NCBI RefSeq assembly: GCF_900104045.1
Contig: NZ_FNIN01000001.1
Span: forward strand, 124,001-188,000
DNA: 64,000 nt
Source of the DNA: Desulfonauticus submarinus
GTDB taxonomy: Bacteria > Desulfobacterota > Desulfovibrionia > Desulfovibrionales > Desulfonatronovibrionaceae
Reading direction: 5' to 3'
The translations under genes and the position numbers were made by a program. Of this stretch, positions 38,173 through 59,577 are shown one piece after another. The notes beneath the pieces are model-generated. The model did not search any database and was not told where the DNA came from. It saw nothing but the letters and a program-made list of their open reading frames with translations. Within the stretch, counting starts at the first letter, position 1. Each line of letters starts with the position of its first letter.

Positions 38173-38178
38173 GCACGG

Positions 38179-38210: not shown

Positions 38211-38223
38211 AGGTAAGATATTT

Positions 38224-40361: not shown

Positions 40362-41308
40362 AACAAGAACTTGAACAACATTCTTCTAGTTTTAATTTTG
40401 TCCAAGCAATACGTTTGTTAAGAGTATTGTTAGATAAAAATAAATCTTTGGATAGAATATTAGAAGAGGATGTATTTGTAGAACCATTGCTTTCTTTAGC
40501 TTTTCCAGGGAGTGATATTTATAAGATAGAAAAAAGAGATGATAAATACCATGTGTTAGCTACTTTTTTGGGATTATATGGTCCATCATCTCCCTTACCC
40601 GTTTATTATACAGAAGAAATTATTAATGAAAGATTAGAAGAAAAAAGTGTTAAAAAAGATTTTTTGGATATATTTAATCATCCTTTTTATGAATTATTTA
40701 TTAAAATTTGGTTAAAATATAGAATATGGTTGAAGATAATTGATGAAAAAGATGAAGAAAGTTTGAATTTTATATATGCTTTTTTAGGATTAGATTATCT
40801 TGAAATTGAGTCTAAAGAAAAGAGAAACTTTTTAAGATATGCTGCTCTTTTTTGCCAAAGACCAAGATCTGCTATAGGCATTAAAGCAATTGTTTCTGAT
40901 TTTTTGAATGAAGATAAGGTAGAAATACGACAATGTGTTGAGGTACAGGTTGAAATTCCTGTGCAACAACGAGTGGCTTTAGGTAAAGAGAATACCGTAT
41001 TAGGAGAAGATTTATTTTTAGGGAAGAAGGTTTCTAGCAGAAACTTAGCAGTAGAAATTAAGGCTGGTCCTTTAAAAAAGGATGCTTTTAAAAAGATTGT
41101 TCCAGTAAACAATAATTTTAAAAGATTACAACATTATTTAAGATTATATATGGAACTTCCTTTACAGTGCAATTTTATTCCTGTTTTAAAATCTTCTGAT
41201 GCTTCTCCACTATCTCTGGGTAAAGAATGGTGTTTTTTAGGGGTTAATAGCTGGATATATACAAAAGATAAGTACAAAGATAATTTAGTAGGTTTATGGA
41301 AGATTTAA
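40325..41308 (+). CDS. tssG: T6SS baseplate wedge protein TssG
   Basis: 327 residues from a GTG at 40325 that has AGGAG about nine bases upstream, inside tssF. The ImpH/VasB signatures FNFVQAIRLLRVLLDK, ATFLGLYGPSSPLPVYYTEEI and FFNHPFYELFIKIWLKYR-like (here IFNHPFYELFIKIWLKYR) are present. It is a wedge subunit that dimer-bridges TssF. A 44-base gap separates it from clpV. Confidence 0.93.
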   Translation: MSSQIWGTAINLKQELEQHSSSFNFVQAIRLLRVLLDKNKSLDRILEEDVFVEPLLSLAFPGSDIYKIEKRDDKYHVLATFLGLYGPSSPLPVYYTEEIINERLEEKSVKKDFLDIFNHPFYELFIKIWLKYRIWLKIIDEKDEESLNFIYAFLGLDYLEIESKEKRNFLRYAALFCQRPRSAIGIKAIVSDFLNEDKVEIRQCVEVQVEIPVQQRVALGKENTVLGEDLFLGKKVSSRNLAVEIKAGPLKKDAFKKIVPVNNNFKRLQHYLRLYMELPLQCNFIPVLKSSDASPLSLGKEWCFLGVNSWIYTKDKYKDNLVGLWKI

Positions 41309-41352
41309 ATAATCAACTATAATTAAATTTAAGATCGTAAAGGAGTTTTAAT

Positions 41353-43947
41353 ATGCAACATGATTTAAGAAAAATAGTAAATAAATTTAACTCCACGGCT
41401 GCAGAAGTTTTACAAAATGCTGCTGGTTTGTGTGTATCCAGAACCAATTATGAGATTGCAGTAGAGCATTATTTGCTTAAAGCAATAGAAAATATTGGTG
41501 GGGATGTGCAGCTTATATTACATCATTTTGGAGTGGATACTGGAGAAATTCAAGCAAGAATTCTTGATGCTTTAGAAGATTTTAAAGCAGGTAATACAGG
41601 AAAACCAATATTTTCACCTTTGTTAGTTGACCTATTTGAAAGTTCTTGGCTTGTAACATCTATTGATTTGGGACTGAATAGGATCAGTACAGGAAGCATA
41701 TTTTTAACTTTTTTAAAAAAACCAACATATTTTGGGGCTGGTAGTTATATTGATGTATTGGTGGAAAAAATTGATATAAGAGAACTAGAGGAAAATTTTT
41801 GGAATATTTTAAAGAACTCTAATGAATATCAAGAAGTAGCTCGAGAACAAGCAGGTGGAGCTCCTGTAGCTGAAGGAGGTTTTGTAGAAAAATATTGCCA
41901 AGATTTTACTGCTAAAGCAAAGGAAGGAAAAATTGATCCTGTTTTTGGAAGAGAAGATGAAATAAATCAAATTATAGATGTGTTAGCTAGAAGAAGAAAA
42001 AATAATCCTATTTTAGTTGGAGAACCAGGAGTGGGTAAAACTGCGGTTATTGAAGGTTTGGCCCTTAGGATTGTGGAAGGTGATGTACCTGAAATGTTAA
42101 GAAATGTACGTTTGCTTGGCTTGGATATGGGTTCTTTAGAGGCAGGGGCAAGTGTTAAAGGGGAGTTTGAAAAAAGGTTAAAAGGTGTTTTAGATGAGAT
42201 AAAAGCATCAGAACAATCTACTATTTTGTTTATAGATGAAGCACATACGTTAATTGGAGCTGGAGGAAGCGCGGGCAGTTCAGATGCTGCTAATTTATTA
42301 AAACCTGCTTTGGCTAGAGGAGAAATAAAGGCTTGTGCAGCTACAACTTGGAGTGAATATAAAAAATATTTTGAAAAAGATCCTGCTCTTGCAAGAAGGT
42401 TTCAATTAATAAAGCTTGATGAACCAGATGTAAAAACGGCAATTATGATTTTAAGAGGATTAAAATCTTTTTATGAAGAAACACATAAAGTTACAGTATT
42501 AGATGATGCTATTGTAGCAGCTGCAGAATATGCTGATAGATATATTACAGGAAGATTTTTACCAGATAAAGCAATTGATGTATTAGATACAGCATGTGCT
42601 AGAGTTAAAATTAATCTTTCTTCTAAGCCTGCTAAATTAAATGCATTGGAAAAAGAATTGCAATCTCTTCAAAGAAAACAAAAAGGGATAGAAAGGGATA
42701 AATTGCATGGTAGGGTTATAGATGAGGAAGATTATGATAATACTTTGAAATCAATAGAAGTTATTCAAAAAGATATAGAGGAACTTAGAAATAAATGGTT
42801 GCAAGAAAAAGAAATAGTGGAAAAATTATTGGATTTACGTTCCAAATTACAAGAAGTTGAAGATAAAGAAAGTATTCAAAAAGAAATAAAAGAATTAGAA
42901 GAGAATTTGCAGGAACTACATCAAGGCGATCCTCTTATTCGTTATGAAGTGGATGTGGATGTGGTAGGGCAGGTAATTTCAGATTGGACAGGCGTTCCGT
43001 TAGGAAAAATAAAGCGCGATGAAACTGAGAATATTTTAAAGTTAGAAGAAAAATTAAGAGAAAGAATAAAAGGTCAAGATCATGCACTCACAATGATTAC
43101 CAAAGTTATCAAGGCTGCTAAATCTGGGGTTAAGCCGCCGACTCAGCCAATGGGGGTATTTTTGTTAGTAGGCCCAAGTGGAGTGGGCAAAACAGAGACA
43201 GGTCTTGCATTAGCTGATCTACTTTTTGGAGGAGAGCAACATGTTGTTACTATAAATATGAGTGAATTTCAGGAAAAACATACAGTAAGTCGTTTGATCG
43301 GTTCACCTCCTGGTTATGTTGGTTATGGAGAAGGAGGCATGCTTACAGAAGCGGTGCGTCAACGTCCTTATACCGTAGTCTTGCTAGATGAAGTGGAAAA
43401 AGCTCATCCTTCTGTGATGAATCTATTTTATCAAGTATTTGATAAAGGTGTATTAACCGATGGTGAGGGCAAGGAGATTAGTTTTAAAGATACAGTTATT
43501 CTACTTACTAGTAATTTAGGAACAGATATTATTCAGGAAATGACAAAAGAAGAAGAAAAACCGCCAGCAGATGCTGTAATGCAGGCAATTAGACCATTGC
43601 TTTCAAAGCATTTTCAACCTGCTTTATTAGCTAGAATGACAGTTATTCCATATTTTAGTCTGGATAAGACAACCCTTAGAGAGATTGTAATTTTAAAATT
43701 AAATAAAATGTCTGATACGGTTTATAATAATAACCGTATAAAAATAAATTATACTCCTGAAGTTGTTGATAAGATAACAGAACGATGTTCAGAAGTAGAG
43801 ACAGGTGCACGGAATATTGATTATATATTACAAGGCAATATTATGCCTAAGATTGCAGATAAAATACTAGAAATGATGGCAGGCGAAAAAGAAATAAATA
43901 AATTACAGTTAATAGTTAAAGAAGATGGCTTTGAAGTAATAGAATAA
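41353..43947 (+). CDS. clpV: T6SS sheath-disassembly ATPase ClpV (TssH)
   Basis: 864 residues. The Clp N-domain (1-160) precedes two AAA+ modules with Walker A motifs GEPGVGKT (about 223) and GPSGVGKT (about 607), separated by a ClpB/ClpV middle coiled coil (about 410-530). The second module has GSPPGYVGYGEGG. Hexameric ClpV recycles contracted TssBC sheath. AAAGGAG precedes the ATG. Distinguished from ClpB by the T6SS context and the divergent N-domain. Confidence 0.95.
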   Translation: MQHDLRKIVNKFNSTAAEVLQNAAGLCVSRTNYEIAVEHYLLKAIENIGGDVQLILHHFGVDTGEIQARILDALEDFKAGNTGKPIFSPLLVDLFESSWLVTSIDLGLNRISTGSIFLTFLKKPTYFGAGSYIDVLVEKIDIRELEENFWNILKNSNEYQEVAREQAGGAPVAEGGFVEKYCQDFTAKAKEGKIDPVFGREDEINQIIDVLARRRKNNPILVGEPGVGKTAVIEGLALRIVEGDVPEMLRNVRLLGLDMGSLEAGASVKGEFEKRLKGVLDEIKASEQSTILFIDEAHTLIGAGGSAGSSDAANLLKPALARGEIKACAATTWSEYKKYFEKDPALARRFQLIKLDEPDVKTAIMILRGLKSFYEETHKVTVLDDAIVAAAEYADRYITGRFLPDKAIDVLDTACARVKINLSSKPAKLNALEKELQSLQRKQKGIERDKLHGRVIDEEDYDNTLKSIEVIQKDIEELRNKWLQEKEIVEKLLDLRSKLQEVEDKESIQKEIKELEENLQELHQGDPLIRYEVDVDVVGQVISDWTGVPLGKIKRDETENILKLEEKLRERIKGQDHALTMITKVIKAAKSGVKPPTQPMGVFLLVGPSGVGKTETGLALADLLFGGEQHVVTINMSEFQEKHTVSRLIGSPPGYVGYGEGGMLTEAVRQRPYTVVLLDEVEKAHPSVMNLFYQVFDKGVLTDGEGKEISFKDTVILLTSNLGTDIIQEMTKEEEKPPADAVMQAIRPLLSKHFQPALLARMTVIPYFSLDKTTLREIVILKLNKMSDTVYNNNRIKINYTPEVVDKITERCSEVETGARNIDYILQGNIMPKIADKILEMMAGEKEINKLQLIVKEDGFEVIE

Positions 43948-43979
43948 ATAATTAAACTTTTAGCTTAATGGAGTATAAA

Positions 43980-46319
43980 ATGCAAAAAGAAAGACGATTT
44001 GCATTTATATCTTTTGATTTTCCTGCTGATACGTTTCAAGTAGTACGTTTTAATGGAGAAGAAGGTTTATCTAATTTATATAGGTTTGAAATAGATTTGA
44101 TTTCTAAAGAAAAAGATTTGGATTTAGGAGATATATTACAAAGTCCTGCTCAATTTAAAATTTTTCGAGAAGATGGAGTTGCTTTATATAATGGGATTTT
44201 AGAGGAATTTGATCAATTACATTACTATGAAGAATATACATTTTATAGAGCAGTTTTAGTTCCCAAATTGTGGTGGTTATCTCAAACCTATCATAATCAA
44301 GTGTTTTTAAACAAAAGTATTTCTGAAATTTTAAAAGATATTTTACAAGATGGAGGATTATTAGAAACGGATTTTGAATTTCGCATTCAAGAAGAATATA
44401 AACCACTGGAATATGTGTGTCAGTACAATGAAACGCATTTAAATTTTTTTCAACGTTGGTTAGCACGAGAAGGTATGTATTATTTTTTTGAACAAGGTGA
44501 ACATAGTGAGAAATTAATTATTACAGACACAAGAATGGGGCATAATGTGTTTTCTGAAGGAGAAAATTTAACTTATGTTCAGTTTTCTGGGCTTGATGAT
44601 ATTCATAGAGAAGAAATTGTTTATGGATTTTATTGTAGACAAAGGAGAATGCCAAAAAATTTACGTTTGAGGAATTATGATTATGAAAAATCTTTAATTA
44701 TTTTAGAGGGAGAGAGTGAAGTTAGTGAAGATGGCTTAGGTACAATTTATCAGTATGGAGAATATTTTAAAGATAATACAGAAGGAAAACGGTTAGCAAA
44801 GATTAAGGCAGAGTCTTTAAAGTGTAAAGAGAAAATTTTTAAGGGGCAAAGTACAGTACCATATATAAGACCTGGTTATTTTTTTAATTTAAAGAATCAT
44901 TATAGAAGAGATTTTAATAAACGCTATTTAGTAATTAACACTTATCATGAAGGATCTCAAGCAGCTTATTTAATAAGTGGACTTTCTGTTGATTTAAAAG
45001 GTATTGAAAAAGAAAATTATTATAGAAATGAGTTTGAAGCGATAGAGTCAACTTTGCAGTTTAGAACAGAAGAATATAAAGAAAAACCAAAATTTTATGG
45101 TTTTTTAAATGCTAAAATAGATGCAAAAGGAAGTGGAGAATATGCTGAAATTGATGACCAAGGAAGATATAAAGTTATTTTACCTTTTGATATTTCAGGA
45201 TCTGATCCAGGCAAAGGGTCTGCTCCTCTTCGCATGATGCAACCTTATTCAGGTCCTAAAGAAGGAATGCATTTTCCTTTGCGTAAAGGAACTGAAGTGC
45301 TTTTAGCTTTTATTGATGGAGATCCAGATAGACCTGTTATAGCTGGAACTGTGCCTAATCCAGATACACCTTCTCCTGTTACAGCAGAGAATCAAACTAT
45401 GTGCAAGATTAATACTCATGGTGGTAATAAAATTCACATAGAAAATGAAGAAGGTAAGCAAAAAATATTATTTCATACTCCTACCCAAGGCTCATTTATT
45501 CGTTTGGGCGCTGGAGGCAAGGATCCTGGTCTTATACCCAATTCTGACAATATATCTATACCAAATATAGAAAAGGTTATAAAAGAGCAACTAAAAGCTA
45601 ATGGTAGTGAAATTCTTGATACTGCAGGAGATGAAATTTCTGGTTTAATAGACAAGGTAAAAAAACTTTGGGATGATTCAGGTAAACCTGGTGGTGTTAG
45701 GTTGTTTTCTCTTGGTCCTATTTCATTAACTGCGGCAAGGAAGGATGAAACTTTTCTTGGTAGTAGTGCTAGTACAATTTTAGGAATGAGATCAGAGCTT
45801 ACTATAGGTTCTCATTCATTAACTACTATTATTAGTTCAACTACTAACCGTCTTGGTGGACATGAAACTTTTAAATCTTGGAGAATAGCATTTATACCTT
45901 TTTATAATAATTTTGCAGGTATCGTTAAGAAAATTACTGGTATAAATTTTAAAGTTGCCTCTGAAGAAACCAAGGTGGTTGAAGCAGAAGAAGCTAATAT
46001 TGCTGCTGTAAAAAATGAATTATCAGAGAATCAAGCGACAATAGCTGCAGAAGTTATGAAACTAAAAGGAGAGCTTACAGAATTGAGAGGAGAAGTTACA
46101 AAGTTGGAAGGTGAAAATACTGCTTTGCAAGGAGAAGTGACCGAGTTATCTGGAGAGGTTACAAAATTGGCAGGGGAAACTACTGAACTTAAAGGAGAAG
46201 TGACTGAAATTAAGGGAGAGCAAACTAAAATAATGGGAGAACTTACTAAAATTGCAGGAGAGGAAACTTCTCTTGCAGGAGAAAGTACTGAAATGGCTGG
46301 AGAGAAGATAGTATTTTAA
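43980..46319 (+). CDS. vgrG: T6SS spike VgrG (TssI), copy 1, with C-terminal heptad-repeat tail
   Basis: 779 residues from the ATG at 43980, six bases after GGAG and matching the start of the third VgrG; the in-frame ATG at 43968 overlaps that site. The gp27-like domain (1 to about 370) and gp5 OB-fold (about 375-460: GRYKVILPFDISG, MMQPYSGPKEGMHFPLRKGTEVL, DGDPDRPVIAG) are typical. A beta-rich stalk (about 470-505) and a divergent part up to about 660 follow. The last 84 residues are twelve tandem heptads of form xGExTxL. VgrG trimers tip the Hcp tube. The N-terminal part is nearly the same as in the VgrG at 60935, while the C-terminal parts differ completely. The tail suggests a trimeric coiled-coil docking extension. 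Confidence 0.94.
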   Translation: MQKERRFAFISFDFPADTFQVVRFNGEEGLSNLYRFEIDLISKEKDLDLGDILQSPAQFKIFREDGVALYNGILEEFDQLHYYEEYTFYRAVLVPKLWWLSQTYHNQVFLNKSISEILKDILQDGGLLETDFEFRIQEEYKPLEYVCQYNETHLNFFQRWLAREGMYYFFEQGEHSEKLIITDTRMGHNVFSEGENLTYVQFSGLDDIHREEIVYGFYCRQRRMPKNLRLRNYDYEKSLIILEGESEVSEDGLGTIYQYGEYFKDNTEGKRLAKIKAESLKCKEKIFKGQSTVPYIRPGYFFNLKNHYRRDFNKRYLVINTYHEGSQAAYLISGLSVDLKGIEKENYYRNEFEAIESTLQFRTEEYKEKPKFYGFLNAKIDAKGSGEYAEIDDQGRYKVILPFDISGSDPGKGSAPLRMMQPYSGPKEGMHFPLRKGTEVLLAFIDGDPDRPVIAGTVPNPDTPSPVTAENQTMCKINTHGGNKIHIENEEGKQKILFHTPTQGSFIRLGAGGKDPGLIPNSDNISIPNIEKVIKEQLKANGSEILDTAGDEISGLIDKVKKLWDDSGKPGGVRLFSLGPISLTAARKDETFLGSSASTILGMRSELTIGSHSLTTIISSTTNRLGGHETFKSWRIAFIPFYNNFAGIVKKITGINFKVASEETKVVEAEEANIAAVKNELSENQATIAAEVMKLKGELTELRGEVTKLEGENTALQGEVTELSGEVTKLAGETTELKGEVTEIKGEQTKIMGELTKIAGEETSLAGESTEMAGEKIVF
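46065..46316 (+). repeat. Twelve tandem 21-bp units encoding heptads xGExTxL at the VgrG1 C-terminus
   Basis: The units read KGELTEL, RGEVTKL, EGENTAL, QGEVTEL, SGEVTKL, AGETTEL, KGEVTEI, KGEQTKI, MGELTKI, AGEETSL, AGESTEM, AGEKIVF and run without interruption to the stop codon. The third and last positions are three and four residues apart in an a/d-type pattern. Gly-Glu is invariant, and the DNA units have diverged at third positions. Confidence 0.95.
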
Positions 46320-46355: not shown

Positions 46356-47411
46356 ATGGATAAAAAAGAGATACTTCAAGCAATAGAAAAAAATCAAACC
46401 ATTGAGAATGTGGATATTTCAGGGATTGATCTTAGTGGAACTGATCTTACGGGAGGTAGGTTTGAGAATGTTTGCTTTAAAGGTGCTAATTTAAGGGGAG
46501 TAAAGATACGTAAAACAGGGTTTAGAAATTGTGATTTTCAAGGAGCTATTTTAGATGAAGTAGATTTTACTCAGGTTGATCTGAGAAAAATGAATTTTCA
46601 AAATGCTAGCCTAAAGCAAATAAAATTCCATATGACTTTGTTGCAAGATACAGATATGAGAGGGGCCAATTGCTCTGGAAGTATTTTTAGTTGGCTGCCT
46701 ATGCAAAGAGTAAAGTTGGATAGGGCAAATCTCTCAAATATTAAATTTGAAAAGGTGATAATGGGAAAAGCAAGTCTTAAAGGAGCAGACTTTTCAGGTT
46801 CTAGACTAACAAAAGTAACATTTAATGGAGCTAATCTTAAGGGTGCTATTTTTAAAGGCGTTAGTTTTTTAAAAATTTTATTTCGTGAATGTGATTTGGA
46901 AAATCAAGATTTTAGAAATATTAATTTCCAGCAAGTAAACGCTGATAGTTCAAATCTTCAAGGTGCAATTTTTTCTGGCGCTAATATTACCATGAGTAAC
47001 TTTCAAAATGCTAATCTTAAAAAAGCAATTTTTGATAAAGCAGTAGGTGAACATGTTATGTTTATGTCCGCAGATCTTAGAAAGGCTCAAATGCAGTCCA
47101 GTTGTATTCCTAAGTCTTATTTTGGACAGGCAAAACTATCAGAAGCTGATTTTAGTAAAGCGGATCTTACTAATTGTGTATTTGAAGGAGCTGATTGTAA
47201 GTTGACTGTGTTTAAGGAAGCACGTTGTCAATATGCAGATTTTTCATACGCAGATTTAAGAGGAGCAGATTTTACAAAAGCTAATCTTGTTTTGGCCAGA
47301 ATGCATTTGACTGTTGAAGAAAATACTAAGTGGGAGGGTGCTTTAAAAACTCCTATCAGAGGGGTAGATAAAGAACAGGCAGAAGCAGAAAAATGGGAAC
47401 CAAATATTTAA
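46356..47411 (+). CDS. Free pentapeptide-repeat protein 1 (T6SS spike cassette)
   Basis: 351 residues, almost entirely A(D/N)Lxx-type pentapeptide repeats (for example GANLRGVKIRKTGF, GADFSGSRLTKVTF, GANLKGAIFKGVSF), predicting a right-handed quadrilateral beta-helix. A short helical N-cap (MDKKEILQAIEKNQTIEN) and a C-cap (DKEQAEAEKWE) frame it. The caps match the second free PPR protein at 57383, and the N-cap also matches the junctions of the two DUF2169-PPR fusions. No Shine-Dalgarno is visible before the ATG. Function unknown; the position between VgrG and DUF2169 genes suggests a spike-associated or cargo protein. Qnr/MfpA-like gyrase binding is possible but unsupported. Confidence 0.85.
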   Translation: MDKKEILQAIEKNQTIENVDISGIDLSGTDLTGGRFENVCFKGANLRGVKIRKTGFRNCDFQGAILDEVDFTQVDLRKMNFQNASLKQIKFHMTLLQDTDMRGANCSGSIFSWLPMQRVKLDRANLSNIKFEKVIMGKASLKGADFSGSRLTKVTFNGANLKGAIFKGVSFLKILFRECDLENQDFRNINFQQVNADSSNLQGAIFSGANITMSNFQNANLKKAIFDKAVGEHVMFMSADLRKAQMQSSCIPKSYFGQAKLSEADFSKADLTNCVFEGADCKLTVFKEARCQYADFSYADLRGADFTKANLVLARMHLTVEENTKWEGALKTPIRGVDKEQAEAEKWEPNI

Positions 47412-47438: not shown

Positions 47439-50400
47439 ATGAAAATATTGAAAGATAAAAAACAATCTCTTTTATTCAGTCCATTAGGTATAAAAGGTAC
47501 CATGTATATGGTATGTACTGTTTTGCTTTTTTTTGATTTAGACGATCCAGATACTCTTTGTACAGAGCAAGAATTATGGCAAACTATACCACCTTTGCTA
47601 GGGAAGGGAAATGTTTTGGACATGAGCATGCCTAAACCACGAGGTGAATTTATTGTAATAGGCAAGTGTTTTACTCCTAGAGGAATTCCTGAACCCGCAT
47701 CTCAAGTGTCTGTACGTGTTGGTAATATAAAAAAAACTCTTTTTGTTTTTGGAAATAGATATTGGAAAAAGAGTTTAGGTGGTAAAGTCATTACTGATCC
47801 AGAGCCTTTTAAAGAAATGCCAATTACTTGGCAAAATGCTTTTGGGGGCAAAAAATATAAAAAAAATCCTCTTGGAAAGGGGATTGATCCTGTTGTTTTG
47901 CCTAATGGTAAAGAGGTTATACCTCTTCCCAATATTGAAGATCCAAAACATCTTATTGGTTCTCCTCTAGACAGGCCCGCCCCTATGAGTTTTGGGCCAA
48001 TAGATCTTATGTGGCCTCAGCGTTTTAAAAAACAAGGCACATATGATGAAAAATGGCTTAAAGAAAGATGGCCTTATTTTCCTGATGATATGAATTATGA
48101 GTTTTTTAATTGTGCCTCTGAAGATCAGTTTTTCCCAAAGTTTTTCAAAGGAGATGAATCCATTGAAATTGTTAATATGAATCCTGATATCCCGGTTTTA
48201 AAATCTCGACTTCCAGGGATAAGGGCTAGGTGTTTTGTTACAAAAAAGAAAAAGATTGACGCTCCTCCAGAGGAGGATAGTTTTGTTGAAGTTGAGATGC
48301 ATAGAGATACAGTATGGTTATTTCCTGAAATACGAAGAGGTATTCTTATTTTTCGAGGAACAACAGAAATTCAAGATGATGAATATGGCGATATAAGATG
48401 GATTTTTCTCAAAAATGAACAATTATCAGAGGAACCAAAACCGATTGAATATTATTTAGAAGAGCAAAAAAAACGGCTTGAACGGGGCGTTCCTATAGAT
48501 ACGGCTCCTTTTGAAGCAGCAAACCAAAAAATTGCTAAGGCTATAAAACGATTTAAATTTCTTCCTAAAGAAATTGAAGAAAAAAAATTAAAAATGATGG
48601 GTAAAAGACCCAAGATGCGCTATTCAGTGGACGAAATAGCAGAAAAGTCAATAAGTGATATAGAACAAAAAAGGGTTCTTTTGGATACGTTGGAAGCTAA
48701 AGCCAAGGAAATGCATGCCAAATGGGGGCATTTAGTAAAAATCCCTCTTGAGAAATTTGGGCAAATTAGAAATCATCTGGATACAATGAAAAAAAAGGTG
48801 CTTAAAACTGCTTCTCGAGTAAAAGAGATGCAGAAAGAGGCAAGTAAACAAAATGAAAAGGCAGCGAAAAATATAGCTCAATCAATTAGAGATAATGTAC
48901 CTGAAGATTTGCTTAAACAAACAGGAGTGGATCCAGATAATTTGATTCCTGAAGAAAAAAGAGAACCATGGCCAGGAAGAGGTTTTCCTCTTGTGATTCA
49001 ATGGCGTAAAAATCTTGAACGAAATAGAGAAGTTCAGGATAAGTTGAGAAAAATTGGATTTGAAAAAAGAACTCTTAAAAGGGCTTGGCTAGGTATAAAT
49101 AATGATCAAAAAATAGAAGATCCTGAGTGTTGGGGACTTGAATCAAAAGATGAAGAAAAAATAACAATACCCTCTGGTCTTGTTATTCCTCATTTTAGAG
49201 AAGCAACTCTTGTGCGTTTTTGGGTAAGACCTGATGAATATAATGATCCAAGCAATGATTTCCTTATGCCTGGATCAGATAGAGAGCCTTTATTTTTATC
49301 TGCTATTGATGATGAAGCTCCTATTATTAGAGTAGCTGATGAATTAGAAGCATGGCTTGTGGAACAAGAAGTAGGAGATGCTTGTTCAGTGGTAGTTCTA
49401 AGAGAGCCAGATGAAGAGCTTCCTGATGAAGTTAAGGAAGATATGGAAAAAGCACTTTGTTTTTTGGTGGTAGTTCCCAAAGATTTTCCTGAGGATAAAT
49501 GGGATAAGTGGAAAAAAGTGTATCCAGATGCTATTAGATTATATTTACCAAAAGGAGAAAATATTTTTGATTTAGTAAAAGAGAATATTGATATTAGAAA
49601 ATGGATTATGGATGCTTTGCCTTTGGAATTTGCAAAGGCACATTACTTAGAGCCTCTTTTGCTTGAGTCTGAAAAACCACCATCTCTTTCAGAAGGTTTT
49701 AAACTTCCGATGTTAAATGTTAAAGACATAGTTAATAATTTAATGAAAGAAATAAAAGCTTCTTATGAGCCAAAAATTAAGGAATTGGAACTAAGCAAAA
49801 TAGAAACAGAAAAAAAGATTAAAGATTCAGTTGTGGAGCAATTAGGAAAAGGTGCAGATAAGCTCGTTTCAAAAACAACAAAGCCTCCCAGTTTTGTTCA
49901 ATCTAGCAAAAATATCGCTAAAAGTATTAATAAACAAAAAAATGAACTAAGTTCCAAAGGATGTCTAACTCCTGAGATTGAGAAAAAAATGGATTCTGCC
50001 ACTCAAAAGGTTCTGCAGATGGGAGAAGAAGCAGAGGAAAAATATAAACAAGCAAAAACAAAAGCTGAAGCAGCTAAAGAAAAGTTAAACAAGCTTAAAG
50101 CTGGAGAAGTACCAGAGGAACTTAAGAAAAAATTTGAAAAGGCTGGAATTGATCCTAAACAATTAAAAAAGCTTACCAGAGAAGAAGTTATTGAAAAATA
50201 TCAAAAAAATCGCTCTCTTAAAGGAGCTATTCTTTCAGATCTTGATCTTTCAGGTCTTGATTTTGAAGGAATAGATCTCACAAATGCTCAATGTCGAAAA
50301 ACAAAATTTTGTAATTGTAATTTAAAAGGAGCTATATTTAATCAAACTCTTGCTAACGAGGCAGATTTTAGCGGAGCATTGCTGACAGAAGCAAATATGA

Positions 50401-51182
50401 AAAAAAGTGTATTTATAAAGGCAAAATTTAAAGAAACTATACTAAGAAATGCAAATATTTCGCAGGGGATATTTACAGAAGCAGATTTGGAAAAGACAGA
50501 TTTTACTAATTCTGTTTTAAAAATGAGCGTGTTTCAAAAAGCAAATATGAAAAAAATTCAATTTTCAGATGTATATGCATACATGTGTGTATTTACAGGT
50601 GCTGATCTAAGTGAAGTGGATTGTAAAAAGAGTAGACTTGAAAAGTGTCTTTTTAAGAAAACTTTGTTAAATAGAACAGATTTTTCCAAAGCATCATTTA
50701 ATTCCACTTTATTTTACGAAGCCTTAGGAGAGCAAGTAAAGTTTATTGGTGCTGATTTAAGTAAGGCAAGAATGGGTAAGAATGCTCAATTTTCTGGAGC
50801 AGATTTTAGAAATATTAAAATGCATCAAGGATGTTTTAGAGATTCAAATCTTTCAGACGCTTTGTTTCAGGGAAGTGAAATAGAAATGAGCATTTTTGAA
50901 GGCTGTGATCTTACAAAAACAGATTTTTATAGGGTAAAAGCTAAAAAAACCAGATTTATTAAATCTAATTTAGAAAGTGCTGATATGCGCGGTATAAATC
51001 TTTTTTTAGGTTCTCTTAGAAAAACAAGAATTGTAAATACTGATCTTAGGGGAGCTAATCTTTATGGAGTTGATTTTTATAAATCGATAATGGGAGATAC
51101 AAAGCTAGATGACTCAAATATTAAAAAGACTCTTATTGAAAAAAATTCTGAAATTTTGAAAAGTTGTTGTAAAAGTAGTTAA
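47439..51182 (+). CDS. DUF2169 - degenerate primase/Toprim-like - pentapeptide-repeat fusion protein 1
   Basis: 1,247 residues. (1) DUF2169, about 1-320 (SMPKPRGEFIVIGKCFTPRG, PITWQNAFGGKKYKKNPLGKG); this family occurs beside T6SS spike genes and is thought to act as an adaptor. (2) Helical linker, 330-500. (3) About 510-725: collinear with the core and Toprim domain of CHC2-type mobile-element primases (RKIGFEKRTLKRAWLG, PECWGL, SGLVIPHF, FLMPGS, ELEAWLVEQEVGDACSVVVL, IDIRKWIMDALP). The family catalytic Glu is Ala, and DxD is absent. (4) Coiled coil, 750-905. (5) Pentapeptide repeats, about 915-1,235. It may mount a PPR needle on VgrG. Weak ribosome-binding site. The primase resemblance rests on remembered family patterns, not an alignment. 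Confidence 0.75.
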   Translation: MKILKDKKQSLLFSPLGIKGTMYMVCTVLLFFDLDDPDTLCTEQELWQTIPPLLGKGNVLDMSMPKPRGEFIVIGKCFTPRGIPEPASQVSVRVGNIKKTLFVFGNRYWKKSLGGKVITDPEPFKEMPITWQNAFGGKKYKKNPLGKGIDPVVLPNGKEVIPLPNIEDPKHLIGSPLDRPAPMSFGPIDLMWPQRFKKQGTYDEKWLKERWPYFPDDMNYEFFNCASEDQFFPKFFKGDESIEIVNMNPDIPVLKSRLPGIRARCFVTKKKKIDAPPEEDSFVEVEMHRDTVWLFPEIRRGILIFRGTTEIQDDEYGDIRWIFLKNEQLSEEPKPIEYYLEEQKKRLERGVPIDTAPFEAANQKIAKAIKRFKFLPKEIEEKKLKMMGKRPKMRYSVDEIAEKSISDIEQKRVLLDTLEAKAKEMHAKWGHLVKIPLEKFGQIRNHLDTMKKKVLKTASRVKEMQKEASKQNEKAAKNIAQSIRDNVPEDLLKQTGVDPDNLIPEEKREPWPGRGFPLVIQWRKNLERNREVQDKLRKIGFEKRTLKRAWLGINNDQKIEDPECWGLESKDEEKITIPSGLVIPHFREATLVRFWVRPDEYNDPSNDFLMPGSDREPLFLSAIDDEAPIIRVADELEAWLVEQEVGDACSVVVLREPDEELPDEVKEDMEKALCFLVVVPKDFPEDKWDKWKKVYPDAIRLYLPKGENIFDLVKENIDIRKWIMDALPLEFAKAHYLEPLLLESEKPPSLSEGFKLPMLNVKDIVNNLMKEIKASYEPKIKELELSKIETEKKIKDSVVEQLGKGADKLVSKTTKPPSFVQSSKNIAKSINKQKNELSSKGCLTPEIEKKMDSATQKVLQMGEEAEEKYKQAKTKAEAAKEKLNKLKAGEVPEELKKKFEKAGIDPKQLKKLTREEVIEKYQKNRSLKGAILSDLDLSGLDFEGIDLTNAQCRKTKFCNCNLKGAIFNQTLANEADFSGALLTEANMKKSVFIKAKFKETILRNANISQGIFTEADLEKTDFTNSVLKMSVFQKANMKKIQFSDVYAYMCVFTGADLSEVDCKKSRLEKCLFKKTLLNRTDFSKASFNSTLFYEALGEQVKFIGADLSKARMGKNAQFSGADFRNIKMHQGCFRDSNLSDALFQGSEIEMSIFEGCDLTKTDFYRVKAKKTRFIKSNLESADMRGINLFLGSLRKTRIVNTDLRGANLYGVDFYKSIMGDTKLDDSNIKKTLIEKNSEILKSCCKSS

Positions 51183-51242: not shown

Positions 51243-53606
51243 GTGGCATATTTAAAGGATAAAAAATATTCTTTTATCTCCAGGGCTCTGGAAAAAGATA
51301 CTTTTGGTGTGGTGGAGTTTAAAGGTGAAGAAGGGTTAAGTAAGATTTACCGGTTTGAGATAACTTTGATTACAGATAGGTTAGATATTGATTTAAGTAG
51401 TGTTGTGCAGCATAGAGGAAAATTTATTATTCATAGAGATGGTGGAGATGATGTTAGTTTTAATGGTATTATATCCAATTTTGAGCAACTGCAAAAGATT
51501 AATGAATATGTGTTTTATAGAGCCATTTTAGTCCCTAAATTATGGTATTTAACTCTTACTCATCACAATCAAGTGTTTCTTAATAAAAATGTGCAAGAGA
51601 TTTTGAAATTGGTATTAGAGGATGCTGGGCTTACAGAAGTAGACTATGAATTTCGCTTACAAGAAGAGTATAAACCTTTGGAGTATGTTTGTCAGTATGG
51701 AGAAAGCCATTTTGATTTTATCAGTAGATGGTGTGAACGAGAAGGTATATATTATTTTTTTGAACAAGGAGATGAAAAAGAAAAGGTAATATTTACAGAT
51801 ACTTTTATATCACATACTGAAAATCCCAAAGGGAAGAGAGTAATATATTCACCTCCATCAGGACTTGGAGCAGGACATAGAAATGAAATAGTGCAAGGGT
51901 TTATATGTAGATATAATACATTGCCTAAAAAAGTTTTATTAAGAGATTATAATTATAGAAAGCCTTCGTTAGAAGTTGTAGGAAGTGCAGAAATAGATCC
52001 AAAAGGTATAGGAGACGTATATTATTATGGAGATCACTTTAGAACTCCACAAGAAGGAAATCGTCTTGCTCAGATAAGAGCAGAAGAGCTTTTGTGCAGA
52101 AGAGAGGAATTTATAGGAGATAGTACGGTTCCTTATTTACAACCTGGTTATATTTTTGAGCTAGAAAATCATTATCGTAAAAATTTTAATCAGCGTTATC
52201 TTACCATTGAACTAAGCCATGAAGGTAGCCAAACAGGTTATTTGGTAAGTGGGATTCAAGATGATCTCTCAGATCGTGAAAAACAGGTATTTTATAGGAA
52301 TAATTTTACAGCAATTCCTGCAAATGTACAATTTCGTCCTAAGAGAATGACAAAAAATCCCAAAATAGTTGGCACGTTAAATGCCAGAATAGATGCATCT
52401 GGGAGTGGCAAATATGCAGAGCTAGATGAAGAAGGTAGATATAAAGTGATATTGCCTTTTGATATATCGGGCAGAAAAGATGGTAAGGCCTCAGCATGGA
52501 TAAGGATGTTGCAACCTTATGCAGGAAATAACCATGGCATGCATTTTCCTTTACATAAGGGCACAGAGGTTCTTTTAACCTTTATAGATGGCAATCCAGA
52601 TCGCCCAGTAATCGCAGGAGCTGTGCCCAATCCTGAGACCCCTTCTCTTGTAACAGCAGAGAATCAAACTACTTGTCAAATTACCACTGGCGGGGGCAAT
52701 ACAATTCATATGGAGGATCAAGAAGGAAAACAAAGGATATTATTTCACAGCCCTACTGCTAATACTTCTATTAGGCTTGGAGCTTCTGGAAATCCATTTA
52801 AGGATTTGGAAAATAATGTTATAAAACAATATAAAGCAGTTGAAGGGGTTTTAAAAAATAGTGGTGGAGATGGAGATGATGACAAGGATAAAGATTATGA
52901 AGATGTCTGGGGTAAAGTGCTGGCAGAAAGAGATGGACTTAAAATAGATACTGGCGCAAGTTTAGAGATGAGGGTCGGCGGAGTAAAAGCAGAAGTAGTA
53001 GGAGGATCAGATACATCAATAGTTATTGGAAATTCTAATGATGTATTGTTAGGTGGAAAGGTAGATATTCATGTTCCTGAAAAATGGATTTATGAAAAAA
53101 GTAAGGTAGAGAGTACGGTTAAAGAAGTGAAGTTAAAAATAAAAAAAGTTACACAAATTCAAAATAATATAAATATGATACAAAACAAAATAAATATTAT
53201 TCAGGAAAAAAAAGAAATAAATGAAAAATCTATTAGCAATATTGGTACTGAAACAAAAATAGCTAAGGCCAAAGAAGAAATTGTTAAAGAAATGTATAGT
53301 ATGTTTGATGTTCTTTCTAAAAAAATAAAGGAAGAAATAAAACGTGTAGAAACTAGATTTAAGCAAGTAAAACAAGAAATTAATGAAATAGAAACAGAAA
53401 TTTCTGATACAAAGAAAAAAATATCAAAAGTTGAAAAAAATATATTTAAGTTTAGTGATCAAATTATAGACGGAGGTAAAAAGATTTCAGAAATAGGCAC
53501 TTATATTCAAAAAACAGAAAAGATAGATATAAATAAAGCTGGAAATATGATAGCACAAGCAGGTCAAATAATAGCAAAGGCTAGTAGCTCTATATTTTTA
53601 AATTAA
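51243..53606 (+). CDS. vgrG: T6SS spike VgrG (TssI), copy 2, with C-terminal coiled coil
   Basis: 787 residues from a GTG at 51243, six bases after AAGGAGGT. The gp27-like and OB-fold domains are clear (GRYKVILPFDISG, DGNPDRPVIAGAVPNPE). A beta stalk (TGASLEMRVGGVKAEVVGG, IVIGNSNDVLLGGKVDIHV) comes next, then about 155 residues of Lys/Glu/Ile-rich coiled coil (IQNNINMIQNKINIIQEKK, KEEIKRVETRFKQVKQEINE). The N-terminal sequence is clearly a different lineage from VgrG 1 and 3. It sits between the two giant DUF2169-PPR genes and is probably the partner of one of them. Confidence 0.94.
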   Translation: MAYLKDKKYSFISRALEKDTFGVVEFKGEEGLSKIYRFEITLITDRLDIDLSSVVQHRGKFIIHRDGGDDVSFNGIISNFEQLQKINEYVFYRAILVPKLWYLTLTHHNQVFLNKNVQEILKLVLEDAGLTEVDYEFRLQEEYKPLEYVCQYGESHFDFISRWCEREGIYYFFEQGDEKEKVIFTDTFISHTENPKGKRVIYSPPSGLGAGHRNEIVQGFICRYNTLPKKVLLRDYNYRKPSLEVVGSAEIDPKGIGDVYYYGDHFRTPQEGNRLAQIRAEELLCRREEFIGDSTVPYLQPGYIFELENHYRKNFNQRYLTIELSHEGSQTGYLVSGIQDDLSDREKQVFYRNNFTAIPANVQFRPKRMTKNPKIVGTLNARIDASGSGKYAELDEEGRYKVILPFDISGRKDGKASAWIRMLQPYAGNNHGMHFPLHKGTEVLLTFIDGNPDRPVIAGAVPNPETPSLVTAENQTTCQITTGGGNTIHMEDQEGKQRILFHSPTANTSIRLGASGNPFKDLENNVIKQYKAVEGVLKNSGGDGDDDKDKDYEDVWGKVLAERDGLKIDTGASLEMRVGGVKAEVVGGSDTSIVIGNSNDVLLGGKVDIHVPEKWIYEKSKVESTVKEVKLKIKKVTQIQNNINMIQNKINIIQEKKEINEKSISNIGTETKIAKAKEEIVKEMYSMFDVLSKKIKEEIKRVETRFKQVKQEINEIETEISDTKKKISKVEKNIFKFSDQIIDGGKKISEIGTYIQKTEKIDINKAGNMIAQAGQIIAKASSSIFLN

Positions 53607-53670
53607 CTCCTATAGGATTATGTATAAAGCGAGTAGATACTGTTTATACTATAATAAAGGGTGATTGGTT

Positions 53671-56600
53671 GTGAGAGTTATAAAAGATATTCATCATGGT
53701 TTACTTTTAAATCGATTTGAAATTGAGAATAAGTGTTATTTGGTTATAAGTATTCTTATCTTTTTTGACTTTGATAAGCCAAATTATCCTTTAAGTGAAC
53801 AAGAAATGTGGAAATTTGTTCAATCTTATTTGGGGAAAGAAGCTATTCTTGACTCTGGAATGCCCAAGATAAAAGGAGAAATAATCGTTTATGGTAGTTG
53901 TTTTCCTCCAGAAGGGACTGCTAAGGTATCAACAGTTGGCTTTGGTATAAAAGGAATTAGAAAAAAGTTGGCTGTATTTGGAGATCGTTTTTGGGAGAGA
54001 AAGGGTGGTATTAGTATTATTAGTGAGCCTAAGCCCTTTAAAGAAATGCCTATTACTTGGGACAGGGCTTTTGGTGGAAAAGAGTATAAAATGAATCCAT
54101 TAGGAAAGGGTATAGATCCTGTTATTCTTCCTAATGGTAGAGAGATAGTTCCTTTACCTAATTTAGAAGACCCTGATCATTTAATAGGATCGCCAGCAGA
54201 TAGACCAAATCCTATTTGCTTTGCCCCCATTGATATGATGTGGCCTCAGCGTTTTAAAAAGCAAGGGACTTATGATAAAAAATGGCTTAGAGAAAGATGG
54301 CCCTTTTATCCTGAGGACATGGACTGGAGTTTTTTTAATTGTGCATCGGAGGATCAACAAAGGGATGGTTTTTTTAGAGGGGGAGAGGAGTTTTTTATTG
54401 AGAACATGCATCCTGAGAGGCCCAAAATAGTCTCCCAAATTCCTGCTCTTAGACAGAAATGTTTTGTTAATAAACTTAAAGACTTAGATAATCCAGAAGG
54501 AGAGACTTTATTTCAAGAAGTAGAAACCAAAATAGATACCCTTATTTTATTTCCTCATGCGTTAAAAGGTATTGCTCTTTGGAGAGGCACTGTAGAAGTG
54601 TTAGATGATGAGGCGCTTGATGTGCTTCATATATTTGTTGCTACAGAGAATTTATTGGATAATGCTAAGGATATAGATTATTATTATAAAATTTTTCAAA
54701 AAAAGCGAAAAGGAGAAATAGATGATCTTCCTGAGGTTCAGGAAGCAGAAGTCATGCTTAAAAAAGCTGAAAAGGAATTGGAAATAGCCAAAAAAGAGCT
54801 AAAAGAACTGCCTAAAAAAATAAATGATTCAATTTTAAGAGGGCTTGGAGAAAGGCCAAAGCAATCTTTTACTCCTAATGAAATAATAAAATCAGCTTTA
54901 GAAAACATAGAAAACTCAGAGCAATTTTTTGGAAAGACAGAGTTGGACTTGCAAGGACTTAGAGAGGAATTTGGGCATATAGTTAAGATTGAATCAATAA
55001 ATATGAAAAATACTATGCAAGAAAATATAGGAAAAATTAAAGAAACGGTAAAAACTTTTGGACAAGAACTTAATGCTATAAATAAAAATGTGCAAGCCTC
55101 AAAAGAGGAAATTAAGTCAAAATTTGAAGCTGGTTTAAAAGGAGGAATAAAAGATAAGATAGTTGAAATAAAGGATTTTTTAGATTTTCTTGATAAAAAA
55201 GAAGATCCGTGGCTTTTATCAGGAATGGAGTTTTTACAAGAATGTCGTCTTCAGCTTCTTAAAGATAAAGAAAAGATGGAGATTCTGACTAAAATAGGTT
55301 TTTCTGACTATACTGTAAAGTGGGCATGGTTGGGTTTTAATCAAAAAGACCGACAATATAAGGGTAGTTTATGGGGGCTTGACCAAGAGGAGATTTTTAT
55401 ACCTAAAGGTTTGGTCATACCTTATTTTGAAAAGGACACTCTTAAAAAACTTGTTATAAGGCCAGATATAATACCAGATAATTCAAAAGATGTTTTAGTC
55501 CCTGGTTCTAAAGAAAAAAATTATCTGCTTTCAACTGCAGTAGTAGAAGGCATTGTAGTTGTGGTAAAGGAAGAATTTGAAGCATTGCTTTTACATCAGG
55601 AAATTTGGGATATAGCTTTGGTGGTTGTTATTAGTAATCCTAAAGAAGAGGTGGATAAAAATACTGAGTCTTTGCTTCAACAGGCGTCTTGTATTTTGAT
55701 CCCTGAATATTCAGTAGACTATATTCAGGCATGTAAAGAAAAATTTTCACAATTAGATTCTATTGTAATGCCAGACAAAATTAATAATATTATTTTAATG
55801 AAATCTAAAAATATAGACCTTCGGAAATGGTTTTTGAGCGTGATAAGACCAGATATAAAGAAAGAACTTATTGATTTAGCCAAAGCAGAGAATATTAATC
55901 TTGAAGAAGAATTTTTATTTAGCTTTGATTTAGTATCTAAAAGAGTTAACAATGTTATAAAAAAAGATACAAATACAGAAAAAATTGAAGAATTAAAAAA
56001 TTTAAAAAATGAAATAATTGCTAATATAAAAGATAAACTTAGAAAAATTGGCGTGTCTGATAAAACTTTAGAAGATATTACTAAAGACTCAGAAGAAAGT
56101 AAAAAATCCTCAGAAGAGTTTATTTTTTCTGCTAGAGAAAAATTAAGTCATATTATCAAAAAAACTAAAATGAAATTAGAATCTTCAGGTTTTTTAACAG
56201 AAAATTCTAAAAAAATTCTAGAAGAAATAGAAAATACTCATTTAAATGCATTACAAAATGCACAGGTAAAACTACAAGACGCAAAGCAAAAAATTCAAAA
56301 TACTGAAGAGTTATTTTCTAAAACAGATTATAAACCTAATTGGGCTAAGGAATTGATAGCAGATAATATAAAGTTAAAAGAATATTATGAAAAACTCACT
56401 AGAGAAAAAGTCATTGAACTTTATAATAAAGGTGAAAGCTTTGCAGGAAAAGACATTTCTGGTGTAGATTTATCTAGACTTCATTTAGATGGTGCAGATT
56501 TTAGTTCATCTTTGCTTGAAGGTACAATTTTTAAAGAATCATCTCTTAATAATGCAAATTTTAGTAAAGCAATCGCTAGTAATACAGATTTTTCAAATGC

Positions 56601-57390
56601 ATCTTTGGAAAATGCCAATTTGGAAAAAGGTATTTTTGATAATGCAAAATTTATAAATGCTAATCTTAGAGGAGCTAATCTTAGAGAGGTGTTTGCAGAA
56701 AAAGCAGATTTTGAAGGAGCAGATATTTCTAAGGCAGATCTTCAAGGAATATCTTTTATTGAGGCAAAATTAAAAGGGATTAAGGGAAAAGAGATTAAAG
56801 CTGATGGTGGAGTATTTTTGCAAGTTGAGGCCTCAAAAGGAATATTTACTGGTGCTGATTTTAAAAAAGCTTTATTTTCTAAGGCATCATTAGAAGAAAG
56901 TGATTTTTCTGAAAGTAAAGTTTGCTCTACTATATTTACAGAGGTAAAGGCAAATAAGACAAAGTTTATTAAAGCAGACCTTTATAATAGTAGAATTATT
57001 AATAAATCTGATTTTTCAGAATCAGATTTTGTGGGAGCAAAGGCAAATAGATCTTGTTGGATGAAGTCAAAGTTATCTGATTCTGATTTTAAAGGTAGTT
57101 TGCTTGATCAAACATTGGTTCAGGAGTGTGATGTTTCTAGAAGTTCTTTGAGAGGTGTATGCGCTAAGAAAGCTCGTTTTGAAAGGTCTGATTTTTCAAA
57201 ATCAGATATGGAGGGAATAAATCTCTTTCAAGGTTCGCTTCGGAAAGCAAGACTTAATAATACAAATTTAAAAAAGGCAAACCTTTATGGAGTAGAATTT
57301 TATAAAACAAAGGTAAAAAATATAAATTTAGAAAATACAAACCTTAAAAAAACAAAACTTGAAGGAAGAGAGCAGACTATCCATGACTAG
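53671..57390 (+). CDS. DUF2169 - degenerate primase/Toprim-like - pentapeptide-repeat fusion protein 2
   Basis: 1,239 residues from the GTG at 53671, nine bases after AAGGG; the TTG at 53665 is too close to that site. Architecture and spacing are the same as in the protein at 47439. DUF2169 covers about 1-320 (SGMPKIKGEIIVYGSCFPPEG, PITWDRAFGGKEYKMNPLGKG). The primase/Toprim-like region spans about 510-720 (LTKIGFSDYTVKWAWLGF, SLWGLDQEEIFIPKGLVIPYF, VLVPGS, EEFEALLLHQEIWD, NIDLRKWF). The catalytic Glu position is Lys and DxD is lost. A coiled coil (750-895) and a pentapeptide beta-helix (about 915-1,235, GADFSSSLLEGTIF, NANLRGANL) complete it. The linker regions have diverged more than the end domains. 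The next gene starts inside its last codons. Confidence 0.75.
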   Translation: MRVIKDIHHGLLLNRFEIENKCYLVISILIFFDFDKPNYPLSEQEMWKFVQSYLGKEAILDSGMPKIKGEIIVYGSCFPPEGTAKVSTVGFGIKGIRKKLAVFGDRFWERKGGISIISEPKPFKEMPITWDRAFGGKEYKMNPLGKGIDPVILPNGREIVPLPNLEDPDHLIGSPADRPNPICFAPIDMMWPQRFKKQGTYDKKWLRERWPFYPEDMDWSFFNCASEDQQRDGFFRGGEEFFIENMHPERPKIVSQIPALRQKCFVNKLKDLDNPEGETLFQEVETKIDTLILFPHALKGIALWRGTVEVLDDEALDVLHIFVATENLLDNAKDIDYYYKIFQKKRKGEIDDLPEVQEAEVMLKKAEKELEIAKKELKELPKKINDSILRGLGERPKQSFTPNEIIKSALENIENSEQFFGKTELDLQGLREEFGHIVKIESINMKNTMQENIGKIKETVKTFGQELNAINKNVQASKEEIKSKFEAGLKGGIKDKIVEIKDFLDFLDKKEDPWLLSGMEFLQECRLQLLKDKEKMEILTKIGFSDYTVKWAWLGFNQKDRQYKGSLWGLDQEEIFIPKGLVIPYFEKDTLKKLVIRPDIIPDNSKDVLVPGSKEKNYLLSTAVVEGIVVVVKEEFEALLLHQEIWDIALVVVISNPKEEVDKNTESLLQQASCILIPEYSVDYIQACKEKFSQLDSIVMPDKINNIILMKSKNIDLRKWFLSVIRPDIKKELIDLAKAENINLEEEFLFSFDLVSKRVNNVIKKDTNTEKIEELKNLKNEIIANIKDKLRKIGVSDKTLEDITKDSEESKKSSEEFIFSAREKLSHIIKKTKMKLESSGFLTENSKKILEEIENTHLNALQNAQVKLQDAKQKIQNTEELFSKTDYKPNWAKELIADNIKLKEYYEKLTREKVIELYNKGESFAGKDISGVDLSRLHLDGADFSSSLLEGTIFKESSLNNANFSKAIASNTDFSNASLENANLEKGIFDNAKFINANLRGANLREVFAEKADFEGADISKADLQGISFIEAKLKGIKGKEIKADGGVFLQVEASKGIFTGADFKKALFSKASLEESDFSESKVCSTIFTEVKANKTKFIKADLYNSRIINKSDFSESDFVGAKANRSCWMKSKLSDSDFKGSLLDQTLVQECDVSRSSLRGVCAKKARFERSDFSKSDMEGINLFQGSLRKARLNNTNLKKANLYGVEFYKTKVKNINLENTNLKKTKLEGREQTIHD

Positions 57391-58450
57391 AGAAGAACTT
57401 CTTGAAGCTATAAAAAGAGATGAGACTATAGAAAATCAAGATTTACGAGGTATGGATTTACGAGGTCTTGATTTTACTGGGGTTAGATTTGAGAATGTGG
57501 ATTTTAGTGGTGCTGATTTAAGAGATTGTAAGATCAAGAAGACTGGTTTTAATGGATGTAAATTTCAGGATACTATAATGGAAGGAGCTGATCTTACTGA
57601 AGTGATTTGGATAGAGATAGATTTAAGTGGAGTTAAGTTGAATAATGCAGTACTTAGTGAAGCTGTATTGATTGAGGTAAAACTTAAAGGAGCTGAATTA
57701 AGATTTGGAAATTTGAAGAATATAATTATAAATGATTCAGATTTGGAAGGGATAGATTTAGAAAATAGTAATCTTTCCAGAGCAGTATTAACTAGGGTTA
57801 ATTTAAAGGGTGCTAATTTAAGTGGAACTGATCTTTCTCACACTATTTTTACTCAGGTTGATTTTCAAAATACTGTACTTAGAGGGGCTAAAATATTTAA
57901 AACTTTTATGCGAGATTCTTTTTTGCAAGGACAAGACTTTAGTGGATGTAAGTTTATAATGGCTCAAGTAGGTGGTTCTGATTTAAAAGGTTGTAACTTT
58001 AAAAAGGCTGATATTTCTCAATCGAATTTTTTAAATGCTAATTTGGAAGAGGTAAACTTTGAAAATACCACAGCTAGGCGAACTGTGTTTATGGGAGCAA
58101 AGTTAGAGCGAGCAATATTTAGAAAGGCTGATCTTTTTCAGGCATGTTTTGATGAAGGAGTAGTTACTCTAGTTGATTTTTCTGATGCTAATTTAGAGCA
58201 ATCAAGATTTGTTTGTGCTAAATGTGTTTCTACTTCTTTTAAAGGTGCTAATTGTTCCTATGTGGATTTTTCATATGCTAATTTAAAGTCTGCAGATTTA
58301 TCGTTTGCCAATCTTTATTGGGCTAAGATGCATAAAACAGAAGTGGATGGAGTGGTTTGGGATAAATCCATAGGACGTTCATCTATAAGGTGGACAGATA
58401 AGGATTTGGCAGAAGCAGAAAATTGGAAATCAAGTTTAAATATAGATTAA
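57383..58450 (+). CDS. Free pentapeptide-repeat protein 2 (T6SS spike cassette)
   Basis: 355 residues. The ATG at 57383 overlaps the previous stop by eight bases and gives MTREELLEAIKRDETIEN, aligned with the start of the first free PPR protein; a frame opening at 57359 is not needed. Nearly all of the chain is pentapeptide repeats (GADLRDCKI, GANLSGTDLSHTIF, DANLEQSRFVCA). A C-cap (WTDKDLAEAENWK) closes it. Translational overlap with the DUF2169-PPR gene implies related function, perhaps stacking on or competing with the fused PPR domain. Function unknown. Confidence 0.85.
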   Translation: MTREELLEAIKRDETIENQDLRGMDLRGLDFTGVRFENVDFSGADLRDCKIKKTGFNGCKFQDTIMEGADLTEVIWIEIDLSGVKLNNAVLSEAVLIEVKLKGAELRFGNLKNIIINDSDLEGIDLENSNLSRAVLTRVNLKGANLSGTDLSHTIFTQVDFQNTVLRGAKIFKTFMRDSFLQGQDFSGCKFIMAQVGGSDLKGCNFKKADISQSNFLNANLEEVNFENTTARRTVFMGAKLERAIFRKADLFQACFDEGVVTLVDFSDANLEQSRFVCAKCVSTSFKGANCSYVDFSYANLKSADLSFANLYWAKMHKTEVDGVVWDKSIGRSSIRWTDKDLAEAENWKSSLNID

Positions 58451-59169: not shown

Positions 59170-59577
59170 ATGTTTCTTTTGTCCACAGAGGGTGGGAAAA
59201 ATGTTGGCACTCCAGATGTATGCAACACTCCTGCTGCTGCAGGTGCACCTGTTCCAACTCCTTATGTAAATATTTCAGATTGTGCTACAAGCAATCCTTC
59301 CACAGTTGCTCAAAGTGTTTTTGCTTCAGGAATGCCTTCTGTAAATTTAAGCACAGAGATACCTCTTAGTAATGGTGATGAAGCAGGTACTCAAATGGGA
59401 GTGGTTTCAGGTGAAATTATGGGTCTTACTCGTTTTCAATCAGGAAGCACAAAAGTATTTATTGAGGGTTCTCCAGCTCAAAGATTAACGAGTTCTACTG
59501 GGCAAAACGGTAGTAATATGAATTGCTTAGGGACTACAGTTGCTCCAGGTCAGACTATTGTGATGATACTTAGTTAA
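59170..59577 (+). CDS. DUF4150 PAAR-like spike-tip protein 1
   Basis: 135 residues. PDVCNTPAAAGAPVPTPYVNI at the start, GDEAGTQMGVVSGEIMG in the middle and SPAQRLTSSTGQNG near the end are the DUF4150 pattern, a PAAR-like family that sharpens the VgrG tip. No C-terminal effector extension is present, unlike many DUF4150 effectors. Paired with the DUF3540 gene upstream; the pair is repeated at 59668-60788. Confidence 0.88.
   Translation: MFLLSTEGGKNVGTPDVCNTPAAAGAPVPTPYVNISDCATSNPSTVAQSVFASGMPSVNLSTEIPLSNGDEAGTQMGVVSGEIMGLTRFQSGSTKVFIEGSPAQRLTSSTGQNGSNMNCLGTTVAPGQTIVMILS

Follow-up and report, generated by a model that had tools for sequence, protein, structure and literature searches.

A degenerate DnaG-type primase core captured by class III TvpAB chaperones of T6SS loci in Desulfobacterota, a probable docking module

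A gene of Desulfonauticus submarinus that lies behind a T6SS cluster encodes a 1247-aa protein with a degenerate DnaG-type primase core in its middle, the order of its parts being DUF2169, helices, the apparently dead primase core, helices and pentapeptide repeats (PPR). We put the probability at about 0.7 that this core was captured once by a class III TvpAB, is dead and works as a rigid docking head that contacts another protein of the spike or baseplate. A paralogue lies 2.5 kb downstream of the first copy (53665-57390, with its primase core at 55204-55842) and the inserts of the two copies are 36% identical. The features of the window, by which we mean the whole 64,000-nucleotide stretch of DNA analysed, are as follows.

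27210..43947, + strand: T6SS core genes TssJ, TssL (DotU), TssM (IcmF), TssA (VasJ), TssB, TssC, Hcp, TssE (gp25), TssF and a ClpV-type AAA ATPase (Pfam)
43968..46319, + strand: VgrG (Pfam Phage_GPD)
46356..47411, + strand: TvpB-type pentapeptide-repeat protein (Pfam)
47439..51182, + strand: TvpAB-type chaperone with primase-core insert, 1247 aa (ORF list; Pfam DUF2169 E 1e-89, pentapeptide E 2e-42)
47496..48356, + strand: its DUF2169 domain, residues 20-306 (Pfam PF09937)
48426..48953, + strand: its N-terminal helical module, residues ~330-505 (alignment with insert-less homologues; AlphaFold secondary structure)
48966..49625, + strand: its degenerate DnaG-type primase core, residues ~510-729 (BLAST, two-way profiles, AlphaFold, Foldseek)
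49335..49349, + strand: former Toprim Glu and ELDA Asp, now A633 and E637 (column counts)
49476..49484, + strand: former DxD, now P680-K681-D682 (column counts)
49641..50153, + strand: its C-terminal helical module, residues ~735-905, with helices of 42 and 43 residues (insert-less alignment; AlphaFold secondary structure)
50172..51128, + strand: its pentapeptide-repeat domain, residues ~912-1230 (Pfam)
51243..53606, + strand: second VgrG (Pfam)
53665..57390, + strand: second TvpAB of the same architecture, 1241 aa (tblastn E 1e-33; alignment; Pfam)
57359..58450, + strand: second TvpB-type pentapeptide-repeat protein (Pfam)
58491..59153, + strand: TvpC (DUF3540; Pfam E 1e-53)
59170..59577, + strand: PAAR-like spike tip (Tox-PAAR-like, PF13665; Pfam E 2e-31)
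59668..60324, + strand: second TvpC (DUF3540; Pfam)
60384..60788, + strand: second PAAR-like spike tip (Pfam)
60935..63736, + strand: third VgrG, 933 aa (Pfam)

The gene order after the T6SS cluster is VgrG, PPR, DUF2169/PPR, VgrG, DUF2169/PPR, PPR, DUF3540, PAAR-like, DUF3540, PAAR-like and VgrG. A class III Tvp system comprises TvpAB (DUF2169 and PPR), TvpB (PPR), TvpC (DUF3540) and a DUF4150/PAAR-like tip (PMC13373197). The proteins encoded here join a DUF2169 N-terminus to pentapeptide repeats and have VgrG, TvpB, TvpC and PAAR-like genes nearby, and judged by their domains the genes behind the T6SS cluster are components of such a spike-assembly system, namely TvpAB, TvpB, TvpC and the DUF4150/PAAR-like tip. 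The same neighbours (VgrG, PPR, DUF3540 and PAAR-like) adjoin the fused genes in nearly all loci on long-enough contigs, often with the fused gene directly 3' of ClpV. DUF2169 is a chaperone of PIPY/DUF4150 tips (PMC11883445), and the need for TvpAB in VgrG-PAAR spike assembly has been demonstrated in Serratia only (PMC13373197). In the Serratia model DUF2169 sits on the PAAR protein, the TvpAB helices lie round the middle of the beta-prism of TvpC and then VgrG, and the clamp is closed by the PPRs (PMC13373197). Within the window, the first VgrG (43968-46319) ends in a heptad-like repeat (GEVTEL/GEVTKL..., residues ~670-760) that matches coiled-coil families, a match absent from the other two VgrGs (51243-53606 and 60935-63736). 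A third, short DUF2169 protein begins at 63721, after the third VgrG; its DUF2169 domain is shortened and followed by pentapeptide-like repeats, and it carries no primase core.

The insert comprises the N-terminal and Toprim lobes of a DnaG-type primase without the zinc finger. Residues 508-729 (222 aa), queried by BLAST against 61 related genomes, retrieved two kinds of genes, DUF2169/PPR proteins of ~1250-1330 aa and stand-alone proteins of ~500 aa, the latter with E values of 2.2e-19, 1.5e-18 and 1e-16 and spanning query residues 2-221 of 222. The stand-alone proteins have a zinc-ribbon/CHC2 finger; three of the five scanned carried Toprim_2 above the Pfam cut-off, both of the two scanned matched a PHROG primase, and the profile of these free primases aligned with Aquifex DnaG (2au3, E 1.8e-18) at the zinc finger, RG motif, R-KY, VE..D and D.D. 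A profile built from fused inserts only recovered ~90 free primases in the order (best E 2.5e-33). Conversely, one built from 44 free primases only recovered all 51 fused inserts, most of them aligned over nearly the whole core (window E 2.2e-32 at model positions 7-238 of ~240; paralogue 1.5e-28; weakest 1.9e-8), and nothing unrelated stood among the matches listed, the remainder being more primases or more fused-gene copies. Profile E values reach 1e-43, and the two-way matches are collinear over a core of ~225 residues that includes the primase-specific N-terminal lobe. An N-terminal zinc finger is absent from the insert, as the match to the profile sets in at model position ~7 and the region before it is helical, with no zinc-finger family match.

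Searched alone, the insert had no significant match in Pfam, NCBIfam or PHROGs and no significant primase match among PDB sequence profiles, so its primase likeness is hidden from standard annotation. The sole PDB sequence match was Nesprin-1 (E 0.012 over 52 positions), which we took as chance. By contrast, the AlphaFold model of the core, built on 19 sequences, was confident (pLDDT 91.7, pTM 0.87), and in Foldseek its best 20 PDB matches were all bacterial DnaG cores or the T7 gp4 primase (best E 8e-7, prob 1.00; TM ~0.6 and 8-15% identity to DnaG); in the viral library it matched DnaG-like phage primases. That a Rossmann-like domain should merely resemble Toprim by convergence or chance, as the silent family libraries and PDB sequence profiles might suggest, is extremely improbable and was rejected in view of the collinear BLAST matches (E to 2e-19), the two-way profiles and the 20 of 20 structural matches to primases. 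The homology to CHC2/Toprim primases proposed in a preliminary description is thereby borne out by BLAST, profiles and fold.

Around the core, alignment with insert-less TvpABs (Escherichia albertii, Caballeronia and Variovorax, Serratia being compared through its published model) places two added helical modules in the fused proteins. The N-terminal one, with predicted helices of 31, 33 and 48 residues, is missing in insert-less TvpAB. These latter proteins, including several from Desulfovibrionales, have a short linker instead, and since the insert profile does not match them either, the idea that they hold a primase remnant was rejected. Many related DUF2169 proteins lack the insert, the third copy in the same genome among them, so Tvp function does not generally depend on it. 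A model of 636 residues covering the helices and core was moderate (pLDDT 75.9, pTM 0.58), and the placement of the core with respect to VgrG given below therefore follows the Serratia model from the literature. Primases were once more the only PDB matches of the 636-residue model, which thus carries no information on relatives of the helices. A short motif, LxxxGhDPDxh, is found in both flanking helical modules, in as many as three copies (e.g. at residues 489, 806 and 906 of one fused protein).

The fused core appears to be enzymatically dead and would synthesize no primer, because the catalytic residues essentially invariant in the free primases are lost in it. We counted six such residues, the Toprim Glu, the ELDA Asp, both Asp of DxD and the Lys-Asp pair. 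All six are kept in 28 of 29 free primases, whereas 34 of 52 fused copies have lost every one of them and the rest retain at most three. The Toprim Glu and the ELDA Asp are each present in 29/29 free primases, and so is the first D of DxD, a position occupied by P in 42/52 fused copies. At the catalytic positions the window core reads A633, E637, P680-K-D682 and E707-N708. The preliminary description had placed the motifs in the correct order. Its view of a dead fold, given with the Ala at the catalytic Glu and VVPKD at the DxD motif, is strongly supported by these losses, in which Glu is replaced by A633, the Asp of ELDA by E637 and DxD by P680-K-D682.

The trees show what is, by all appearances, a single origin, with one fusion into a class III TvpAB in an ancestor within Desulfobacterota. 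One branch (support 100/99) parts the 50 fused from the 44 free cores in their joint tree; a tree of DUF2169 only, with the insert left out, needs two label changes, of which well-supported branches force one. Together the two trees require no more than one capture, perhaps with one loss. The search for further DUF2169-PPR proteins with the insert yielded ~50 fused homologues. By our own count, fused copies occur in about 49 of 348 genomes of the window's class, and the insert is or was present in 17 of 32 DUF2169 genes across 150 genomes of the order; a phylum-wide sample added a few further copies. Named fused loci belong to Desulfonauticus, Desulfovibrio, Desulfocapsa, Syntrophus, Desulfobacteraceae and unclassified Deltaproteobacteria. 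None of 72,556 plasmids yielded the fused insert, though 138 of them carry DUF2169, and relatives were not found in viral contigs (single-protein query) or phages (free-primase query), so these searches identified no mobile-element source. Two genomes have DUF2169 ORFs (731 aa and 781 aa) that stop at or just after the primase core, with the pentapeptide repeats as separate downstream ORFs. Some fused genes are apparently broken, a Syntrophus copy lying over two frames and that of another genome containing several in-frame stops.

The core is evidently under purifying selection and not decaying. Among a set of related fused genes the median pairwise dN/dS was 0.107 for the core, 0.053 for DUF2169, 0.082 for the PPR and 0.08-0.13 for the helices, values that are approximate as dS is high. 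The scaffold residues W511, G540, G552, WGL 565-567, P578, G580, P584, GS 612-613, A638, W691, R720 and LP are kept. The single origin, the wide retention and the dN/dS of ~0.11 together speak for recruitment rather than decay, as had been suggested earlier.

In the reading that we favour, a DnaG-type core was inserted once between the DUF2169 domain and the pentapeptide repeats of a class III TvpAB. DUF2169 would grip the PAAR-like tip while the long helices extend along the beta-prism of TvpC and then VgrG, as in the Serratia TvpAB model. The rigid, acidic and non-catalytic core would then lie at the far end of the lengthened helices, where it may touch a further spike or baseplate protein, and such docking would help to retain the spike or pass it on ahead of firing.

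NTPs and alarmones are known ligands of DnaG-type cores. The fused core could therefore have kept ligand binding, with a nucleotide, alarmone or nucleic acid in a remodelled pocket sensing the state of the cell to license spike loading, and its intact modelled fold and purifying selection agree with this. We nevertheless regard it as rather unlikely, as the metal-binding Glu and Asp are lost in most fused copies together with K606 and Y607 before the GS motif (present in 25/29 and 28/29 free primases) and the free-family arginines R539, R562 and R598. The domain is also acidic, with a net charge per 100 aa of -3.7 against +0.7 for the free primases in the two clades compared, and of -14 in total for the window core. 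The acidic charge and the lost basic residues make nucleic-acid binding in particular unlikely, and it was rejected as the main role on the charge difference. Among the roles proposed earlier it thus falls away, and a scaffold or partner-binding module stays as the inferred one.

The core might also be a passive spacer, a globular cap that gives the helical arm solubility or length without any specific contact and for which any stable domain would be adequate. There are TvpABs that lack the insert, and the core varies less than the helical modules around it (mean identity among fused proteins of 30% and 25% for the flanking helices, 39% for the core and 42% for the PPR), as a spacer would allow. 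We hold this to be unlikely, because the core has gained conserved stretches specific to the fused proteins, PWHDRGFP..V...R (510-523) and EQExGDxC (642-649), in which W511, H512, F516, P517, R523 and E642-D647 persist across 25-60% identity; the low dN/dS argues the same way, and no copy examined has another domain in its place.

It is quite improbable, in our estimate, that the dead core links spike assembly to DNA replication or invading DNA so that loading follows the replication state; this could act through a retained ancestral contact (e.g. with the replicative helicase or a single-strand-binding protein) or through a remodelled nucleotide pocket. T6SS spike-associated proteins frequently carry fused enzymes, and a primase-like enzyme that is still active and either works within the T6SS or is exported by it, for instance as an effector, would fit that pattern, but this is very improbable and was rejected on the residue counts, the catalytic residues being gone in essentially all copies of a domain that is internal, without a zinc finger and part of a protein described as a chaperone.

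On the docking reading, a contractile injection machine would have taken over a replication enzyme as a structural or docking part. This is a rare step from enzyme to scaffold, and the repurposed domain has been retained across sulfate-reducing and related bacteria. The role of the middle of TvpAB is little understood, and this region may encode specificity or hand-over. Tests can draw on ~50 fused homologues, on an extant sister family of catalytic primases to compare them with, and on a chaperone system that is already defined.

The TvpAB chaperones with a domesticated primase core form a new subclass, unmarked in current domain databases. None of the 5.39 million papers searched, a set short of the bulk of the subscription literature and of all bioRxiv preprints, mentions DUF2169 together with primase; the terms primase and Toprim are absent from the two main studies on DUF2169, and the earlier remark that no such fusion was known agrees with this search. 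The fused proteins resemble the class III TvpAB of Serratia marcescens (PMC13373197) and the DUF2169-PRP synteny type C (PMC11883445) in combining DUF2169, helices and pentapeptide repeats and in having VgrG, TvpB, DUF3540 (TvpC) and PAAR-like neighbours. They differ from these proteins of ~850-1000 aa in their length of ~1240-1400 aa and in two extra helical modules with a dead primase core between them. The closest sequence relatives of the insert are the stand-alone zinc-ribbon/Toprim primases of Desulfobacterota, collinear over the whole core, which unlike the insert have a CHC2/zinc-ribbon finger, intact catalytic residues and genes of their own. The bacterial DnaG core (1eqn, 3b39, 2au3) has the same two-lobe fold (Foldseek prob 1.00) at 8-15% identity and TM ~0.6, but the insert lacks its catalytic residues. 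A precedent for a non-functional Toprim primase domain retained within a larger protein is metazoan Twinkle (PMC7231222); there the domain is still part of DNA replication, whereas the fused core has moved to a secretion machine.
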